Source: Arthrobacter sp. StoSoilB19
GTDB taxonomy: Bacteria > Actinomycetota > Actinomycetes > Actinomycetales > Micrococcaceae
Assembly (NCBI RefSeq): GCF_019977275.1
Contig: NZ_AP024650.1
Span: forward strand, 2,108,001-2,172,000
Direction: 5' to 3'
DNA length: 64,000 nucleotides
The position numbers and the translations under genes are program-made. Positions 27,306-35,632 of this stretch are shown one piece after another. Positions within the stretch are counted from its first letter, which is position 1, and each line of letters opens with the position of its first letter. Below the pieces are notes generated by a model. The model did no database searches, had not been told where the DNA came from, and saw nothing but the letters and a program-made list of their open reading frames with translations.

Positions 27306-27638
27306 ATGACCGAAATCAAGCCGGGCCGCACGGCCCTGGAGGACGTCGAAGAGGCGCTCAAGGACGTCATCGACCCTGAGCTTGGCGTCAACGTGGTGGA
27401 CCTGGGCCTCCTGTACGGCCTGAAGTACTCCGATGACGACGGTGCGCTCCTGATCGACATGACGCTCACCACCGCAGCCTGCCCGCTCACCGACGTGCTC
27501 GAGGAGCAGGTGGGCCAGGCCCTGGACGGCGTCGTTGACGACTGGCGCCTCAACTGGGTCTGGATGCCGCCTTGGGGTCCCGAGCGGATCACCGATGACG
27601 GCAAGGACCAGATGAGGGCCCTCGGCTTCAACATCTAG
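27306..27638 (+). CDS. sufT: metal-sulfur cluster assembly factor (DUF59/MIP18 family, SufT-like)
   Basis: 110-residue DUF59-family protein. It shows DVIDPELGVNVVDLGLLYGL and the conserved cysteine in TLTTAACPLTDVLEEQ, both family marks. SufT proteins help Fe-S maturation under high demand. It is the last gene of the operon, 12 bases after sufC, and is followed by a long terminator hairpin. Confidence 0.92.
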   Translation: MTEIKPGRTALEDVEEALKDVIDPELGVNVVDLGLLYGLKYSDDDGALLIDMTLTTAACPLTDVLEEQVGQALDGVVDDWRLNWVWMPPWGPERITDDGKDQMRALGFNI

Positions 27639-27698
27639 AAAAAAGTACGACGACGGCCGGTCACCATTCCCGCGAAAGGTGACCGGCCGTCGTCGTAC
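27639..27698. terminator. long bidirectional terminator between sufT and the metallopeptidase gene
   Basis: A 21-bp perfect stem (27645-27665 with 27678-27698) and a 12-base loop. On the minus strand it is followed by a run of six T (the A-run at 27639-27644), a classical intrinsic terminator for the convergent metallopeptidase gene. It can also stop the suf transcript. Confidence 0.9.
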
Positions 27699-27713
27699 CC
27701 CGTTCCATCGAGG

Positions 27714-28595
27714 TTAGAGGCTGGCGGCGCTGAAGGTGTCGCACTGCTTGATGTCGCCGGTCTGGTAGCCCCGGCTGAACCACCGCTGGCGTTCCTCACT
27801 GGAGCCGTGTGTCCAGCCTTCGGGGGAGACACGTCCGGTGGCTGCCTTCTGGATCCGGTCATCGCCCACTGATGCGGCCGCCGACAACGCGTCGTTGACG
27901 TCCTGCTGGGTGAGCGGTTCCAGGTAGGGCTGCCCGGTGGACGGGTCCGGCGTGGTGGATGCGTACTTGGCCCACAGGCCTGCATAGCAATCCGCCTGCA
28001 GTTCCGTACGGACGGAACCGGACTCCGGTCCCTGCGGGTCCTGCTGCGCCCGCTGCAGATCGCCCAGCAGGTTCTGGACGTGGTGGCCGAACTCGTGCGC
28101 CACTACGTATTCCTGGGCCAGAGGTCCGCCTGAGGAACCGAACCGGTCCACGAGTTCCTGGAAGAAACCGGGATCAAAGTAGGCGGTAGTGTCCGTGGGG
28201 CAGTAGAAGGGCCCTACTTCGGAGGTTGCGGCCCCGCACCCGGTGTTGGTGCCGCCGCTGAAGATCACGGCCTCCGGGCGGGGGTACTGCACGTTGTACT
28301 GCTTCAGGTAGCCGGGCCAGAACGCATTGAGGCTGTTCACCGTGCCGGTGATCCGGCAGTCCAGGCGGGCATCGGCGTCCGCTCCGGTGGTGCAGGCCGG
28401 TGCCGTGCCCTGGGACTGTCCGCCGGCACCGTTGTCCACCAGCCCGCCGAGCATGTTCGGGTTGATTCCCAGCAGGAGCGCAACGAGCAGCACCAGGCCG
28501 CCGCCGATTCCGCCGCCGATTTTCACGCCGGTGCCCATGCCCCTACGGTCCTGGACCTGGGAAGGATCAAGCTGCACGTTGTCATTGAAACTCAT
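27714..28595 (-). CDS. neutral zinc metallopeptidase (YpfJ/KPN_02809 family)
   Basis: 293-residue predicted membrane-anchored zinc metallopeptidase. The zinc motif HEFGHHVQ lies mid-protein and is followed by the conserved ELQADCYAGLWA. The N-terminus has a short cytoplasmic part (MSFNDNVQLDPSQVQDRRGM), a glycine-rich stretch and one membrane helix (about residues 28-45). The start at 28595 is the only one that fits the family; the frame remains open upstream by chance. Substrates are unknown for the family. Monocistronic by its position. Confidence 0.92.
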   Translation of the reverse strand: MSFNDNVQLDPSQVQDRRGMGTGVKIGGGIGGGLVLLVALLLGINPNMLGGLVDNGAGGQSQGTAPACTTGADADARLDCRITGTVNSLNAFWPGYLKQYNVQYPRPEAVIFSGGTNTGCGAATSEVGPFYCPTDTTAYFDPGFFQELVDRFGSSGGPLAQEYVVAHEFGHHVQNLLGDLQRAQQDPQGPESGSVRTELQADCYAGLWAKYASTTPDPSTGQPYLEPLTQQDVNDALSAAASVGDDRIQKAATGRVSPEGWTHGSSEERQRWFSRGYQTGDIKQCDTFSAASL

Positions 28596-28653: not shown

Positions 28654-30060
28654 GTGCCTTTCCTCGACAAGATCCAGCTCTGGGCTGGGCAACGGCCGCA
28701 CGACACTGCCGTGGTGATCGCGGGCCGGCGACTGGACTGGGCGGAGCTGCTGGATGCCGCCGCGGGTCTGGTGCCGGAGATGAAGTCCGTCAGTACCCTG
28801 TGCGAGTCCAATTCGGTGGACTTTGCCGTAAAGTTCGCAGCCGCCGTGGCCGGCGGCCGCCAGTGCGCGGTCCTGGACCCTTCGTGGCCCGCACCGCTGC
28901 AGGAGGATATTGTCCGGCGGGTGGAGGCATGCGCCGTTCCGGCCCAGGTCTCCCCGGACGACGTGCTGGCCGACGGCCCGCCTGGCTCCAGCTTCCTCAT
29001 CGGCCTCACTTCCGGCACTACGTCTGTACCCAAGGCGTTTACCCGCTCCCGGCGGTCATGGCAGCAGTCCTTCGACGCTTCCATCGAGTTTTTCGGGCTT
29101 CGCCAGGACGACGTCACCCTTGCGCCCGGGCCGCTGGCTGCCAGCCTGAACCTCTATGCCCTGGCCGAATGCCTCTACGCCGGATCCGAGTTCCAAACAC
29201 TGGAGACGTTCGACGTCGGCGACGTCCACGCTGCCATCACCCACGACCGGGTCACCCGGCTGGTCCTGGTGCCCACCATGCTGCGGATGCTCAGCGAACG
29301 GGGGATGACAGGGTGCGTGGACGCCTCCGGAATCCGCACCATCATCTGTGCAGGCTCCAAACTCGATGCCCGCACCCTGGAAGCGGCACGGCGCTGGGCG
29401 CCGAACGCCACCATTTATGAGTACTACGGCGCCTCCGAGCTGAGCTTCGTCTCCGGCCTGGGCCTGGCCGCGGGACAGGTTCCGGCGGCGGGCGGCACGG
29501 GAATCGGGCGGCCCTTTCCCGGTGTCGATGTCCGGATCCTGGATGACGGTGGCGCAGCGGTTCCGGACGGCGGCTACGGCAACATCTGCGTCCGCAGCGG
29601 CATGGTGAGCAACGGCTACCTGTGGGGCGACGACGGCGAGGCGCTGCGGTCCTTCGGCGACTGGTACACGGTGGGGGACCAGGGCTACCTTCTGGACGGC
29701 GAGCTGCACATCCTTGGCCGGCGCGCGGACATGATCCTTACCGCCGGAAGGAACGTCTACCCGCACGAGGTGGAACTGGCCCTGGCGGCAGTCCCGGGTG
29801 TGGCGGCAGCGGTGGCCGCCGGCGTGGCTGACGATCTGCGCGGCCAGCGCGTGGTGGCGGGGGTGGTTGCATCCCATGGCGGGCTGACGGCCACGCAGTT
29901 GCGCGCCGGCCTGGAGGACATCCTGTCCCGGCACAAGCGGCCCCTGCAGTACTACCTCCTGCCGGAACTTCCCACCACGGACCGCGGCAAGGTCAGCCGG
30001 AACCTGCTGCTGGAGTGGATCAACACCCGGGACCCCAGGGTACGGCCCCTTGGTGGCTGA
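28654..30060 (+). CDS. acyl-CoA synthetase/AMP-binding ligase (YhfT-like)
   Basis: 468-residue adenylate-forming enzyme. Motifs in order: the phosphate loop LTSGTTSVPKAF, the A5 motif YEYYGASELSF, the A7 motif GDQGYLLDGELHILGR, and A8/A10 in MILTAGRNVYPHEVE with a C-terminal lysine in TDRGKVSRN. It activates a carboxylic acid to its CoA thioester; chain length is unknown. It overlaps the thiolase gene, and both converge with the biotin ECF operon. In Bacillus subtilis the same trio (bioY homologue yhfU, ligase yhfT, thiolase yhfS) forms an operon, so a biotin-related role is plausible. GTG start. Confidence 0.88.
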   Translation: MPFLDKIQLWAGQRPHDTAVVIAGRRLDWAELLDAAAGLVPEMKSVSTLCESNSVDFAVKFAAAVAGGRQCAVLDPSWPAPLQEDIVRRVEACAVPAQVSPDDVLADGPPGSSFLIGLTSGTTSVPKAFTRSRRSWQQSFDASIEFFGLRQDDVTLAPGPLAASLNLYALAECLYAGSEFQTLETFDVGDVHAAITHDRVTRLVLVPTMLRMLSERGMTGCVDASGIRTIICAGSKLDARTLEAARRWAPNATIYEYYGASELSFVSGLGLAAGQVPAAGGTGIGRPFPGVDVRILDDGGAAVPDGGYGNICVRSGMVSNGYLWGDDGEALRSFGDWYTVGDQGYLLDGELHILGRRADMILTAGRNVYPHEVELALAAVPGVAAAVAAGVADDLRGQRVVAGVVASHGGLTATQLRAGLEDILSRHKRPLQYYLLPELPTTDRGKVSRNLLLEWINTRDPRVRPLGG

Positions 30061-31252
30061 CGCGGTGCACGCTGAGCTCCTGCCGCCGGACCGCCAGCCG
30101 GTGATCATCGCCGCCCGCCGCACCCCGGTGTGCCCGGTCAACGGAGCCCTGCGCACCCTGCGGGCACATCAACTCCTGGCCCCGGTGCTGCGCGCGCTCG
30201 TCTCCGAACTGTCCCTGGAGCCGGAGTCCGTTGCCGACGTCGTGATCGGCAACGCGGTGGGCGGCGGCGGAAACGTGGCCCGGTTGGCCTTGCTGGAGGC
30301 GGGTCTGCCCGTCACCGTACCCGGGATCACCGTGGACCGGCAGTGTGGCTCAGGACTGGACGCCATCGTCCTCGCCGCCCGGCTCGTGGCGGCAGGAGGC
30401 AGTCCCGTTTACCTGGCTGGGGGAGTGGAGAGCACCAGCACCGCGCCCCTGCGCGCCAACCGGAGGGACGACGGCGGCCCGGAGTTTTACGCCCGCGCCC
30501 AGTTTGTGCCGGCCAGCTACGGCGATCCGGACATGGGTACCGCCGCGGAAACGGTAGCCGCGGAATACGGCGTCGGCAGGGACCGCCAGGATGCCTTCGC
30601 CCTTGCCAGCCACCGGAAGGCCCTCACGGCGACCCGGGACGGGCGTTTCGCGGGCGAACTCGTGCCACTGGCCACCGCTGCCGGGACCGTCTCCGTCGAT
30701 GGCGGGCCGCGGGCCGGCCTGACCCCCGCCATCATGGCAAGGTTCCCGGCCGCCTTCGTGCCGGGAGGAACCGTTACCGCCGGAAACTCCTGCTTCGACG
30801 CGGACGCCGCCGCCGCCGTCGTCATCACCTCCCTGGAGCGTGCACGCCGGCTGGGGGCACGCGACGGCCTGGTGGTGCGCGGCACCGGCACAGCCGGCGT
30901 GGCCCCCCAGGTACTGGGGATCGGTGCTGCCCCTGCCGCGCGGGAGGTGCTGGCCCGTGCCGGGGTGTCAGCCGGCGAGGTGGGCCTGGTGGAATTCAAT
31001 GAGGCGTTCGCGTCGCAGGCACTTGCCTGCCTGGACCAGCTTGGCATCGATCCCGAGCGGGCAAACCTCGACGGCGGTGCGCTGGCCCTGGGGCATGCCT
31101 ACGGTGCGTCCGGGGCCGTCCTGGTGACGCGGCTGCTGGCCCAGGCGAGGGGCGCCGGCACGCCGGGAACCCTGGGGCTGGCGATGATCAGCATGGCGGG
31201 CGGCATGGGGACCGCGGCACTGCTGGAGTACCGGCAGCTGTCGCCAGCCTGA
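30053..31252 (+). CDS. thiolase-family protein with altered C-terminal active site (YhfS-like)
   Basis: 399-residue thiolase. The nucleophilic Cys in DRQCGSGLD (about residue 98), the NEAFASQA motif and the His in LALGHAYGASGAV are present. The C-terminal motif, normally a CxGGG-type loop carrying the second catalytic Cys, reads SMAGGMG, with Ser (codon 31190-31192) at the Cys position. The acid/base residue for C-C bond chemistry is therefore missing, and ordinary thiolysis is doubtful. The start is uncertain (TTG 30050, GTG 30053 or later). It overlaps the upstream ligase gene by 8 bases, so the two are co-transcribed. Confidence 0.88.
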   Translation: MADAVHAELLPPDRQPVIIAARRTPVCPVNGALRTLRAHQLLAPVLRALVSELSLEPESVADVVIGNAVGGGGNVARLALLEAGLPVTVPGITVDRQCGSGLDAIVLAARLVAAGGSPVYLAGGVESTSTAPLRANRRDDGGPEFYARAQFVPASYGDPDMGTAAETVAAEYGVGRDRQDAFALASHRKALTATRDGRFAGELVPLATAAGTVSVDGGPRAGLTPAIMARFPAAFVPGGTVTAGNSCFDADAAAAVVITSLERARRLGARDGLVVRGTGTAGVAPQVLGIGAAPAAREVLARAGVSAGEVGLVEFNEAFASQALACLDQLGIDPERANLDGGALALGHAYGASGAVLVTRLLAQARGAGTPGTLGLAMISMAGGMGTAALLEYRQLSPA

Positions 31253-31268
31253 TCTTCAGGGGGCTGTG

Positions 31269-31892
31269 TCAGTCCTCGGCCTCGCCGAGGCCGCGGGCGG
31301 CGAGCGCTTCGCCGGTTTGGCGGGCGTAGGCCACGGAGGTGATGAACACGGGCAGGATCAATGCGCGCGGGTTGCGCTCCAGGCCCCGTGCCCGGGCGGA
31401 ATCGCGGACGTCGGCGAACGTGCCGGCAATGAACGGGATGCTGCGAAGCATGATGCCAGTAGTCAGGGCGAAGCGTTCAGGATCGGCGCCGAGCCTCCTG
31501 AACGGACGCGCCAGCCGGACAACGCCATCCAGGAGCTGTTGAATGGGTGTGGTGGCGGTGAGCAGGGACGCCGCCACCACGCAGACCAGGATGTTCAGGA
31601 CGATCCGCGCCGCAGTGGGGCCGCCGAGCTGCCACCACTGGAAGAACCCGATGGCCAACAGCACTGGAGCCAGCGGCCGGACGGCTCCCCAGATCCGTCT
31701 CGCGCCGGCGCCTGCCAACAGGAACAGTCCGGTGAGCATGGCCAGCACGGCAGCGGAGATGCGCCAATCCACGATGACGAAGGACGCCAGGCCGCAGGCA
31801 AACACAAGCCCGAACTTCAGCGCCAGCGGTGCGCGGTGAAGGAGGGAGTTGCCTGGCACGTAATTGGCCAGGAGGAATCCGTGGCCCCTCAC
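31269..31892 (-). CDS. bioN: energy-coupling factor transporter transmembrane protein (BioN/EcfT)
   Basis: 207-residue EcfT-type membrane subunit with about five helices and the two Ala-Arg-Gly signatures that contact the ATPase (SARARGLERN and ALAARGL). GTG at 31892 is chosen because it overlaps the bioM stop as GTGA; an earlier GTG at 31934 would make a 46-base overlap. With bioM and bioY it makes a complete biotin-specific ECF transporter. Confidence 0.9.
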   Translation of the reverse strand: MRGHGFLLANYVPGNSLLHRAPLALKFGLVFACGLASFVIVDWRISAAVLAMLTGLFLLAGAGARRIWGAVRPLAPVLLAIGFFQWWQLGGPTAARIVLNILVCVVAASLLTATTPIQQLLDGVVRLARPFRRLGADPERFALTTGIMLRSIPFIAGTFADVRDSARARGLERNPRALILPVFITSVAYARQTGEALAARGLGEAED

Positions 31893-32620
31893 GGAGCGTC
31901 CCTGCCTGCCGGATTCAGCCCCTGCAGGCACCACGAACGGTAGGCTGCCACGGCTTCGCCAGGGGCGCCGTCAAATGCCACGCGGCCTGCTTCGATGACC
32001 AGGACGCGGTCCATTTCCAGTGCCAGGTCCAGGTCATGGGTGGACATGATGATCTGCTGGTCCAGGTTGGCCAGCGTCCGGCGGAGCAGCTCACGGTTGC
32101 GCAGGTCAAGGAGGGTGGAGGGTTCATCCAGGACCAGGACCGCAGGGTTCACTGCGAGCACGGCGGCGAGCGCCATGAGCTGGCGCTCACCGCCGGACAG
32201 CTCGTAGATGCTCTGGTCGGCCAGGTGCAGGAGCCCCAGCCGTTCGAGCGCCGCGTCGGCCTGGCGACGCCGCTCGGGGCCGTTTTTCACGGAACGGCGC
32301 AGGGACAGCTCCACATCCTCCCTGCCGGTGGGCATCACCAGCTGGGAGAGGGGATCGGTGAAGACGAAGCCGACGTTCCGCCTGACTTTCCGCACGGCAC
32401 GCACTGTATCGTCGCCGTCGACCGTCACCGTGCCGGTGGTGGGCTGGATGAGCCCGTTGACCAGGCGCAGCAGCGTTGACTTCCCCGAGCCGTTGGCGCC
32501 GATGACGCCCACGCGTGCCTCCTCCAGCCGGAGGGTCACCGCGTCAAGGAGGACTTTGGGCTGTGCGGAGTTCTCCGTTTCGACGGCGACGGACGCCTGG
32601 TCAAAGGTCACTGCGGGCAT
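31889..32620 (-). CDS. bioM: energy-coupling factor transporter ATP-binding protein (BioM)
   Basis: 243-residue ECF ATPase: Walker A GANGSGKST, signature LSGGERQLMALAAV, Walker B LVLDEPSTLLD, switch His in STHDLDLAL. The ATG at 32620 gives a normal length; an open frame runs farther upstream through bioY and is not coding. It starts 11 bases after the bioY stop and overlaps bioN by 4 bases. Confidence 0.92.
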   Translation of the reverse strand: MPAVTFDQASVAVETENSAQPKVLLDAVTLRLEEARVGVIGANGSGKSTLLRLVNGLIQPTTGTVTVDGDDTVRAVRKVRRNVGFVFTDPLSQLVMPTGREDVELSLRRSVKNGPERRRQADAALERLGLLHLADQSIYELSGGERQLMALAAVLAVNPAVLVLDEPSTLLDLRNRELLRRTLANLDQQIIMSTHDLDLALEMDRVLVIEAGRVAFDGAPGEAVAAYRSWCLQGLNPAGRDAP

Positions 32621-32631
32621 GGCGGGAGGTC

Positions 32632-33276
32632 CTAGGCGCTTTCGGACGCGGCGGTACGCCGGCGCACGCGGCGGACCAGGACGTCGGGGAAGGCGCGGTG
32701 AAGGGCGACGGCGATCGCGGCGGCGAGGACATTCTTGATGATGTCGCCCGGGTAGAAGACCAGGTCGCCCAGGAAGGCCTGCTCCAGGGTGGCCTTGGAG
32801 TTCAGCGCGATGCCCAGGATGCCCAGCGAGTGCACAACCACGATGCTCGTGGCCGTGGCAGCCACGAAGAACCAGAGGGCGCGGGCCTTGGTGGTGCGTT
32901 TGATCACCACGGTGGCCAGCCATCCCACGACGCCTGCGGCGATGGGGAAGGCGATGATGTAGCCGGCCGAGGGTCCGGCGAGGATGCCCAGGCCGCTGCG
33001 GCCCTGGCTGAAGATGGGCAGGCCGGCCAGGCCAAGGAGCGTGTAAAGCCCGACGGCGGCGAACCCGCGGGCGGGGCCCAGCACCAGTCCGGTGAGCATG
33101 ACGGCCAGGGTCTGGAAGGTGATGGGGACGCCGAAGCCGTTCAGGGCCAGTCCGGGCACCAGGGCTGCGCCGGCCACGAGGGCGGCAAAAACGGCGATCA
33201 GCCCAAGGTCAGTGCCGTTCCAGCGGCGGCGCTCCGTCCGCGGGCTGTTCTTGGGGGTGGTCTCGGTATTGCTCAT
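32632..33276 (-). CDS. bioY: biotin transporter BioY (ECF S component)
   Basis: 214-residue BioY, the membrane substrate-binding component for biotin with six helices. Family motifs: GVPITFQTLAVMLTGLVLGP and GRSGLGILAGPSAGYIIAFPIAA. The ATG at 33276 follows AGGA at a good distance; a TTG at 33300 is possible. First gene of bioY-bioM-bioN. Two TGTACA elements lie just upstream and may be the control site. Arginine-rich C-terminus. Confidence 0.94.
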   Translation of the reverse strand: MSNTETTPKNSPRTERRRWNGTDLGLIAVFAALVAGAALVPGLALNGFGVPITFQTLAVMLTGLVLGPARGFAAVGLYTLLGLAGLPIFSQGRSGLGILAGPSAGYIIAFPIAAGVVGWLATVVIKRTTKARALWFFVAATATSIVVVHSLGILGIALNSKATLEQAFLGDLVFYPGDIIKNVLAAAIAVALHRAFPDVLVRRVRRRTAASESA

Positions 33277-33317: not shown

Positions 33318-33717
33318 GCCGACGCTACCGGGGTGGAACACCGCCCATTTTGTAGGGGATCTACTAAACCGGGCCGCGCCTGCCTCGGGCTGGGCACAAA
33401 GAGCCCTCGGTCACGGGTCTTGTCGCTTCTTCCGGCGCGTGAGGCCCCCACTGTTGATCGTACCGACGAGGCTCCTATCCACTGGTGGCTGCACCTCTTC
33501 CACCGAACGGTTGTCAGACTTTGTTGCGGGAGTCTCCCGGCTTCTGGGTCTCGGGGGAGAACCCCAGGAGCAGGTGACGACACCGGCGGCGCCAGGGCGT
33601 GGCCCCCGTCCTACCGGCCTCACGTCGAATCGTGTAGGCGCCGCAGGCGCAGCTGGCCGGCGCGCATCCCACTGCCATGCCGGCGTACCTTGGTCCTCAT
33701 GCCCCCATCTGCTCCGA
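33318..33717. other. non-coding region between bioY and the IS30-like element
   Basis: About 400 bases with short chance frames on both strands but no recognisable protein, tRNA or repeat. It may hold remains of older insertions; I cannot identify any. Confidence 0.4.
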
Positions 33718-33765: not shown

Positions 33766-35632
33766 GTAGCGGTTAGGGCACCCCTGATTCTGTTGATCGA
33801 AGCAACACCCAATCCAGGGAGTTCCTTCGATGTATCAACAGTTCGATTCGCCCACCGGTGTCAGGTTTCTTGCTCTCATAAAGGAGGGCAAGAGTTTCAG
33901 AGAATCAGTACGGGTGACCGGAGTCGGTAAGGAGACGGGTTACCGGTGGCTGCGTGATGAGTACCTCCGATTCCGCAGCAAAGGCCTCGACCACGTAGCT
34001 GCCCAGGTCGAACTGGGATTCACGTCACGCAATGCCGAGAAATGGAACGAACGCTTCCTGAGAAGCTCCGGGCGCCATCACTTCCAAGTCGACCCAGCTG
34101 TTGAGGAAGCGTTCTGGTCCTCATACTCCACCGGCATGAGCGTATTGGCTGCTGCAACATCAGCAGGCGTAAAGCACACGACAGGGTACCGGTGAGTCTA
34201 CCGGCGTTTCATCGCTCTGCGAAGTGGACTTCCGCTGGCAGAGGTTGTCGATGCGTTACGACTGTCCCCGGGGACAACCGTTAGATGGGAAGCCCAACGG
34301 AGAAAAGAACTGGAAGCCGAAAAAGCACGTCTGCTGAAAGCCGAGCGGGAAGCGATTCGGACCGCGAGGATCGTTGCCGAGAGGGTTGCAGCTCCTTTGT
34401 CTCCAGCACAAAAGCGACGCGCGTTACGGGAGACACGATATTGGGAGTTGGTGGGCTCCGGTGCTTCCAATGCTGCCGCCTGCAGGATGTTGGGCGTGAG
34501 CAGGGTTATCGGGACAAGGCTTCGGAACCAGAGGGCGCAACAGCCACGGGCCAGCCTCAAACCACCATCGGGCAGGTACTTGTGCCTGCGCGAGAGGCTT
34601 CAAATGGCGGACCTGCTCCGCTTGGGATGTTCTCTGCGGCAAATTGGCAGGGAGCTGGGGAGGCATGCCTCGACCATCAAACGGGAGCTTGACCGGCACC
34701 GTGATCCCCGGGGGCGCTACTTGCCCCATATCGCCGATCACGAAGCGCGCAGCCAGCGACGTCGGCCGAGGGATCGGAAATTGCACGCTAATCCACGCCT
34801 GCACGCACTGGTGCAAACAAAGCTAACCAGTCACTGGTCGCCGGAGCAGATCTGCGGGTGGTTGGCGCTGGAATTTCCCGCTGAACCAGCGCTGCGGCTC
34901 TGTCCGGAGACAATCTACCAAGCACTATTGTTCGGCGATCATGGCGGGCTAAGAACGGCTGGCAAGCCACGCCTGCGCACAGGGCGAAAGATTCGTAAGC
35001 ACCGCTGGCGGACAGGATCAGGTCATGGTTCCGTCGTGAAGAACATGACGATGATTCACGAAAGACCGCCAGAGGTTGATGCCAAAGAAGAGGCCGGCCA
35101 CTGGGAAGGTGACCTCATCGTGGGGGTTGGTTCCGCATCCGCTATGGTCACCTTACGGGAACGAAAGACCCACTACGGAATCATCATCAACCTTCCGCAC
35201 GGACACACCGCAGCGCAGACCAACCAAGCGATCATCGCTGCCTTCTCAGGCTTGCCGGCTCACCTGAAGCAGACACTGACTTGGGACCAAGGCGTGGAAA
35301 TGGCCCGTCATCAGGAATTAGCGGCCGCTACCGGACTGCGGATCTACTTCGCGGAGCGGTCCAGCCCCTGGCAACGCGGCGCGAATGAGAACTTTAATGG
35401 CCTCGCGCGCCAATACTTCCCAAAGGGTACGGATCTCTCCGTCCATTCAGAGGTCCACGTCAAACAGGTCTGCGTCGAGCTGAACAGCAGGCCACGCAAA
35501 AGCCTCGGCTACCTCACTCCGGCAGCAATCTTTCAATTCTCGACGGACGGATAGGCTCCCACGCCAAGAGCCTCCAGCTGCCGACTGGCGACGCCTCTCC
35601 CGCGTCCCGTCAGTCTGCCCCTATCCTCCGGT
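33766..35632 (+). mobile_element. IS30-family insertion sequence (ends tentative)
   Basis: The element contains the transposase frame 33830-35554. The ends are tentative. The left candidate, GTAGCGGTTAGGGCA at 33766-33780, has a loose inverted match near 35610-35632 (TGCCCCTATCCTCC against TGCCCTAACCGCT), about 11 of 13 positions with one gap. No target-site duplication was found. About 1.87 kb is long for IS30, in line with the unusually long transposase. The family call rests on the DDE domain; the boundaries are weak. Confidence 0.55.
33830..35554 (+). pseudogene. IS30-family transposase interrupted by one in-frame TGA
   Basis: One continuous frame of 575 codons with a single stop, TGA at 34193-34195 (codon 122); I read every codon from there to 34397 and found no other stop and no frameshift. 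Before the stop: helix-turn-helix GKSFRESVRVTGVGKETGYRW. At the stop: VKHTTGYR*VYRRF, so by analogy with TGYRW the lost codon was probably TGG (Trp). After it: a charged coiled coil, two more helix-turn-helix regions (LGCSLRQIGRELGRHASTIK is the IS30 type), then the DDE core with HWEGDLIVG, TWDQGVEM and NENFNGLARQY. The downstream part could restart at TTG 34397. Most likely a recent nonsense mutation; recoding is possible but unsupported. Confidence 0.85.

Follow-up and report, generated by a model that had tools for sequence, protein, structure and literature searches.

In this work, we have analysed the biotin transporter locus of a 64,000-nucleotide stretch (the window; G000:C1:2108001-2172000) of the 4.37 Mb single-contig genome of Arthrobacter sp. 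StoSoilB19. Our results show that an acyl-CoA ligase gene and a thiolase gene, which lie beside bioN, bioM and bioY in this window, form a pair that travels with the biotin importer in two bacterial phyla. We tentatively propose that the two enzymes catalyse the first steps of a module that salvages biotin vitamers and is linked to the importer. Somewhat more doubtful is the complete pathway that we envisage, a hitherto undescribed salvage in which biotin-starved bacteria may import shortened biotin catabolites and rebuild their pentanoyl chain with four activities: the dedicated ligase, a thiolase whose catalytic cysteine has moved, a FabG-like reductase and a MaoC-type dehydratase of two subunits. 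The elements of the window locus are the following.

28654–30060, + strand: YhfT-type acyl-CoA ligase, 468 aa, GTG start (Pfam AMP-binding and AMP-binding_C)
30050–31252, + strand: YhfS-type thiolase (Thiolase_N and Thiolase_C)
31272–31934, - strand: bioN, T component of an energy-coupling factor (ECF) transporter, CbiQ family (Pfam CbiQ)
31892–32620, - strand: bioM, ATPase of the ECF transporter (Pfam ABC_tran; NCBIfam)
32635–33276, - strand: bioY, biotin-binding S component (PF02632, E 4.7e-37)
33348–33367, - strand: palindrome TTAGTAGATCCCCTACAAAA before the bioY start; putative operator for a biotin regulator

All five open reading frames (ORFs) are intact at these positions. The ligase and thiolase genes on the + strand converge with bioN-bioM-bioY on the - strand, an arrangement reported in a preliminary description of this DNA and confirmed here by the ORFs and their Pfam matches; the stop codons of bioN and of the thiolase gene are about 20 bp apart, and the open frames of the ligase and the thiolase overlap by about 10 bases. 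The BioY, ABC and CbiQ-type components are adjacent, as expected of an ECF biotin transporter. The true start of bioN is possibly more internal to its ORF, and that of the thiolase lies somewhere between 30050 and 30080; thiolase residue numbers refer to the 390-aa form that begins at 30080. Position 33276 is the start of bioY, whose promoter motif (33348–33367) falls outside the span originally described. An Rfam scan of the window detected no RNA elements. Further upstream of bioY, at 34397–35554, there is an IS30-family transposase, where relatives in the genus have ABC-ATPase-like matches.

How closely is the pair tied to the transporter? When gene places were compared by hand in 149 genomes of the host family, 44 proved to have a YhfS-type thiolase no further than about 6 kb from bioY, against about 4.6 expected from nine thiolases per genome; given this excess, and because the order is kept at 37% ligase identity, the pairing is beyond chance. 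The ligase adjoins the thiolase in all of the 20 best family loci, down to that identity, except L012, which meets a contig end. Three gene orders occur in the family: convergent ligase-thiolase and bioN-bioM-bioY, bioY-ligase-thiolase-bioM-bioN, and bioM-bioN-bioY-ligase-thiolase, so that the pair can be inserted even between the S component and the A and T components. In five more genomes of the family it is separate from bioY. Across the wider phylum the ligase is uncommon: a search with a strict cut-off (E 1e-70) detected it in 6 of 396 genomes, a lower bound because scoring was restricted to the four top first-look candidates in each genome. Rarity of the pairing among bioY loci, which the preliminary description named as counting against its reading, is not seen in the host family, where about 30% are paired, although the pair is rare in the wider phylum at that cut-off. 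A distant actinobacterial locus (L027, 5860–9222) has the order bioY-ligase-bioM-bioN and no thiolase, and the ligase can therefore accompany the transporter alone. In much of the host family, sufT and a gene for a YpfJ-type zinc peptidase are conserved beside the ligase (window 27306–28583; L032–L043), and the pair is therefore also found at the end of a SUF iron-sulfur operon.

Loci of a second phylum were retrieved by a ligase-profile scan of 11 million genome contigs, seeded by a Bacillus cereus-type YhfT sequence, and only the retrieved loci are used as evidence. Among the 80 best, all titled Bacillota, the thiolase gene is adjacent to the ligase gene in 79 and BioY is present in 77, usually in the order bioY-ligase-thiolase on one strand; the repeated association proposed earlier is thus borne out in both phyla. 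Downstream, Pfam and NCBIfam identify a FAS1_DH-type dehydratase subunit in at least 28 loci (a lower bound, some genes being masked by longer antisense ORFs), a MaoC-type one in 37 and an adjacent FabG-like short-chain dehydrogenase/reductase (SDR) in 11, and in six loci (L108, L111, L120, L121, L122 and L126) the five enzymes are encoded consecutively. Ligase, condensing enzyme, ketoreductase and dehydratase amount to one C2 elongation cycle minus the enoyl reductase, and this extension of the operon to a near-complete C2-elongation set appears to be new. Reverse β-oxidation and HadAB-FabG elongation likewise use a thiolase, an SDR reductase and a two-subunit MaoC-type dehydratase; the Bacillota operons differ from these systems in being tied to a vitamin importer and in having no enoyl reductase. 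The enzyme set could in principle run in reverse, and we infer its direction from the regulation of the genes. In the apparent operon of Paenibacillus sp. PCH8, the BioY-ECF genes are separated from the ligase gene by one for a distant adenine-deaminase-like amidohydrolase (L119, 4235–5971), whose substrate could be an amide or a cyclic ureide.

The promoter of yhfS-yhfT in Staphylococcus aureus is subject to biotin-dependent repression by BirA (PMC6391492, PMC7235819), and a review describes BirA/biotin control of these genes in Bacillus subtilis and S. aureus alike (PMC11089781). The genes are therefore expressed under biotin scarcity, a pattern that speaks against a role in biotin catabolism. 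A BirA-like inverted repeat is found upstream of bioY in 52 of the 77 Bacillota pair operons, against 1 of 77 shuffled sequences, with a spacing of 14–15 bases in the repeats printed. The suggestion that the set has a biotin-related role or control agrees with both lines of evidence. The palindrome at 33348–33367, of which 0.01 copies would be expected in the window, has similar motifs in several relatives; its other copy in the host genome lies upstream of bioB. As these are its only two places in the genome, the motif suggests a host biotin regulon with two sites, bioY and bioB. Next to bioB-bioA-bioF operons of the host family (L165, L169 and L171; Pfam for L169) there are TetR-type genes in divergent orientation, and these are candidate BioQ regulators of this palindrome.

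The thiolases of these loci have a rearranged active site. In the Zoogloea enzyme Cys89 serves as nucleophile and Cys378 as base, the oxyanion hole is built from His348 and Asn316, and the canonical fingerprints are CXS, NEAF, GHP and CXG (PMC3406046). The window thiolase keeps CXS with its nucleophile (C89 G90 S91) and His339, the equivalent of His348; the GHP fingerprint has G338-H339 followed by Ala, where most relatives have Pro, and CXG is lost, reading S371-M-A with Ser371 in place of the base Cys378. Cys89 and the His are invariant in the window thiolase and its relatives and NEAF is mostly retained, whereas Cys378 is absent from every bioY-linked thiolase examined, with Ser or Ala in actinobacteria and Gly in Bacillota (78/78 of those having a residue there). 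At the position that we take to be Ser247, the window thiolase has Cys238, and a Cys is found in 22 of 23 actinobacterial and 71 of 79 Bacillota bioY-linked thiolases, with Thr in six further actinobacterial ones; control thiolases, from the host family and not linked to bioY, have both Cys378 and Ser247 (21/21). This pattern of a lost Cys378 and a Cys at the Ser247 position appears to be new, and the gained residue may be a replacement base. In an unrooted tree all controls fall on one side of a branch (100/99) that divides them from the bioY-linked thiolases, which form separate actinobacterial (98/92) and Bacillota (96/86) groups.

The AlphaFold model of the window thiolase is confident (predicted local distance difference test, pLDDT, 92.9) and matches solved thiolases, so its predicted fold is ordinary and the question concerns its chemistry. 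With the Zoogloea ramigera thiolase and Thermus TT0182 (1ulq, 42% identical) it shares the fold (template modelling score about 0.9), Cys89, His348 and NEAF, and it differs from these biosynthetic and degradative enzymes in the missing Cys378 base, the Cys at the Ser247 position and an invariant Asp (D149) of the YhfS-type active-site loop. Mycobacterial TLP1 and TLP2 also combine a thiolase fold with altered fingerprints and a lost CXG, but they lack the nucleophile Cys89, NEAF and GHP as well, whereas YhfS-type thiolases retain Cys89, the His and NEAF (PMC3406046).

Both window enzymes are distant from their Bacillus counterparts. PRK07638 is the top NCBIfam match of the ligase at 235 bits, below the curated cut-off of 518, and PRK06690 comes second to a general thiolase subfamily model for the thiolase, at 315 bits against a cut-off of 498; Bacillota bioY-operon homologues exceed both cut-offs, with 659 (L047) and 576 bits. 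For this reason we use the labels YhfT-type and YhfS-type for the two genes of the window and do not count them as members proper of these families; the likeness to the Bacillus yhfUTS set that had been pointed out stands, as that of distant members. B. subtilis yhfUTS and S. aureus bioY with yhfS-yhfT (BirA regulon) share with the window BioY, a PRK07638-type ligase and a PRK06690-type thiolase, but there the pair follows a lone bioY whereas here it converges with the three-component bioYMN, and thiolase position 378 is Gly there and Ser here. The ligase is about 30% identical to its Bacillota relatives. Its motifs are intact (SGTTSVPKAFTR...SW, YYGASE, GRRADMI and the lysine K446), and its start agrees with the MPFL N-terminus conserved among relatives. 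It also has the PKxFxRxxxSW motif that typifies bioY-linked ligases after the P-loop, and K127, R131, S135 and W136 are invariant in 45 aligned sequences including this one. In fold, the ligase model is nearest to MenE, 4CL and aryl-acid ligases, and its best 50 fold matches include no long-chain fatty acyl-CoA ligase.

Taken with the importer, these enzymes could act as follows. BioYMN would import biotin and, we infer, catabolites with side chains trimmed by β-oxidation, such as bisnorbiotin, which is two carbons short. The ligase would form the CoA thioester of the imported vitamer, and the thiolase, with its rearranged active site, would add two carbons by Claisen condensation. Reduction and dehydration of the 3-keto group would fall to the FabG-like SDR and the FAS1_DH/MaoC pair, whose genes belong to the operon in many Bacillota, and in the host presumably to enzymes encoded elsewhere in the genome; an enoyl reductase would then restore the pentanoyl side chain. 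The substrate, the direction, the uptake by BioY, the enoyl reductase and the release of free biotin are the conjectural parts of this scheme. Bisnorbiotin is a candidate because the module would add two carbons to something imported alongside biotin, and in human serum it is comparable in amount to biotin (21–591 pM against 140–356 pM; PMC9106636). A biotin-related thioester, as had been suggested for this locus, is thus plausible for salvage. Our limited literature search found no description of a bacterial pathway for bisnorbiotin salvage.

Several observations weigh against salvage. No enoyl reductase was found, including in the Bacillota operons, and the reductase and dehydratase genes are absent from the window locus. 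At the promoter of the window ligase no bioY-type operator was found when looked for, unlike in B. subtilis and S. aureus, so that biotin control of the pair and its co-regulation with bioY are at most putative in this genome. The uptake of bisnorbiotin by BioY is a conjectural step, and a thiolase that has lost Cys378 might catalyse something different from a Claisen condensation. In addition, genomes with bioB or bioD carry the pair somewhat more often than others (odds ratios 2.8 and 2.4, Fisher p 0.005 and 0.019, respectively, with no correction for kinship), an association that would not be expected from salvage.

The main rival, which we regard as possible though rather doubtful, is a biotin-sparing lipid response. 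Biotin scarcity makes acetyl-CoA carboxylase and hence malonyl-CoA limiting; the module would then activate free fatty acids and extend acyl-CoAs with acetyl-CoA, bypassing malonyl-CoA. The elongation gene set and its biotin-repressed expression fit this explanation equally well, the pair occurs in auxotrophs, and fatty-acid ligases are among the NCBIfam names closest to the ligase. On the other hand, the linkage is with the S component of the transporter, even within a bioY-bioMN unit, and not with fatty-acid genes, the active site is altered in every bioY-linked thiolase, and the ligase fold is closest to aryl-acid/MenE enzymes. We favour salvage over the lipid response because the transporter linkage and the aryl-acid-like ligase fold, and only these, tilt that way. 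Alternatively, the thiolase homologue may not condense at all, and might as an acyltransferase or thioesterase-like enzyme transfer the biotin-like acyl moiety of the CoA thioester to a different acceptor, trapping it after import. We consider this improbable. Cys89 and His348 are kept while Cys378 is lost in all bioY-linked sequences examined, and the locus with a ligase between bioY and bioM and no thiolase also fits; yet the reductase and dehydratase of the Bacillota operons make most sense with a 3-keto product, and the Cys gained at the Ser247 position in most members could serve as base.

The preliminary description raised a pimeloyl thioester as one possibility. A role of this kind in biotin synthesis, in which glutarate or pimelate would be converted to a thioester and lengthened to give BioF its pimeloyl-CoA, now looks very unlikely. 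Glutaryl-CoA plus C2 is chemically fitting, and the modest enrichment with bioB and bioD would suit it. The known BioZ, BioW and BioI pimeloyl routes involve thioesters too, BioZ being a condensation by a member of the thiolase superfamily, but they are linked to the synthesis genes bioF-A-D-B, and the window-type pair occurs without those. The host genome has bioB (L031, 6969–8021; G000:C1:2034968-2036020), no bioD was found in it, and its sole bioF-type hit, at C1:1466178, is below the cut-off and far from bioB (bioA was not searched); the supply of pimeloyl-CoA by the module is therefore unlikely there. As most genomes have one bioF-model hit away from bioB and bioD, probably a related α-oxoamine synthase, that model is uninformative alone and bioD with bioB were used instead. 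In the host family, bioD is missing from 25 of the 49 pair-carrying genomes and both genes from 16; in Bacillota, 29 of 49 lack bioD (among them the genomes of L111, L126 and L102) and 15 lack bioB, and complete five-enzyme operons are present in genomes without either gene, such as L111 and L126. Many of these genomes are drafts, and single absences are weaker than the overall pattern. Moreover, three sampled prototrophs have a P450 in their bio operon, with the pair (G009 and G142) or with no pair listed (G007), and by analogy with BioI it is a plausible pimeloyl source. Retention of bioB without detectable bioD, seen in the host genome, three others of the genus and 15 of the 49 pair-carrying Bacillota genomes, suggests that these genomes depend on imported dethiobiotin or on some other substrate of BioB. 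That the block sufT-peptidase-ligase-thiolase-bioNMY is merely inherited by neutral synteny in Arthrobacter-like genomes is hardly credible: sufT and the zinc peptidase are indeed also conserved neighbours, but other gene orders within the host family, bioY operons with the pair in a second phylum and the experimental biotin control in S. aureus contradict it, and as a full explanation it is refuted by these independent arrangements. Overall, the interpretation first given to this locus is partly supported.

What do these results mean for the bacteria that carry the pair? The yhfTS genes are regulated by biotin in B. subtilis and S. aureus, yet in the literature that we searched they are described only as putative fatty-acid enzymes. 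With pimelate supply excluded in many carriers and a near-complete elongation operon at hand, their function becomes directly testable, and the thiolases without Cys378 are an active-site variant that merits a structure. If salvage is correct, biotin catabolites, usually counted as waste, would be a usable source of the vitamin, and the way in which biotin availability is reckoned, in soil as on hosts, would change.

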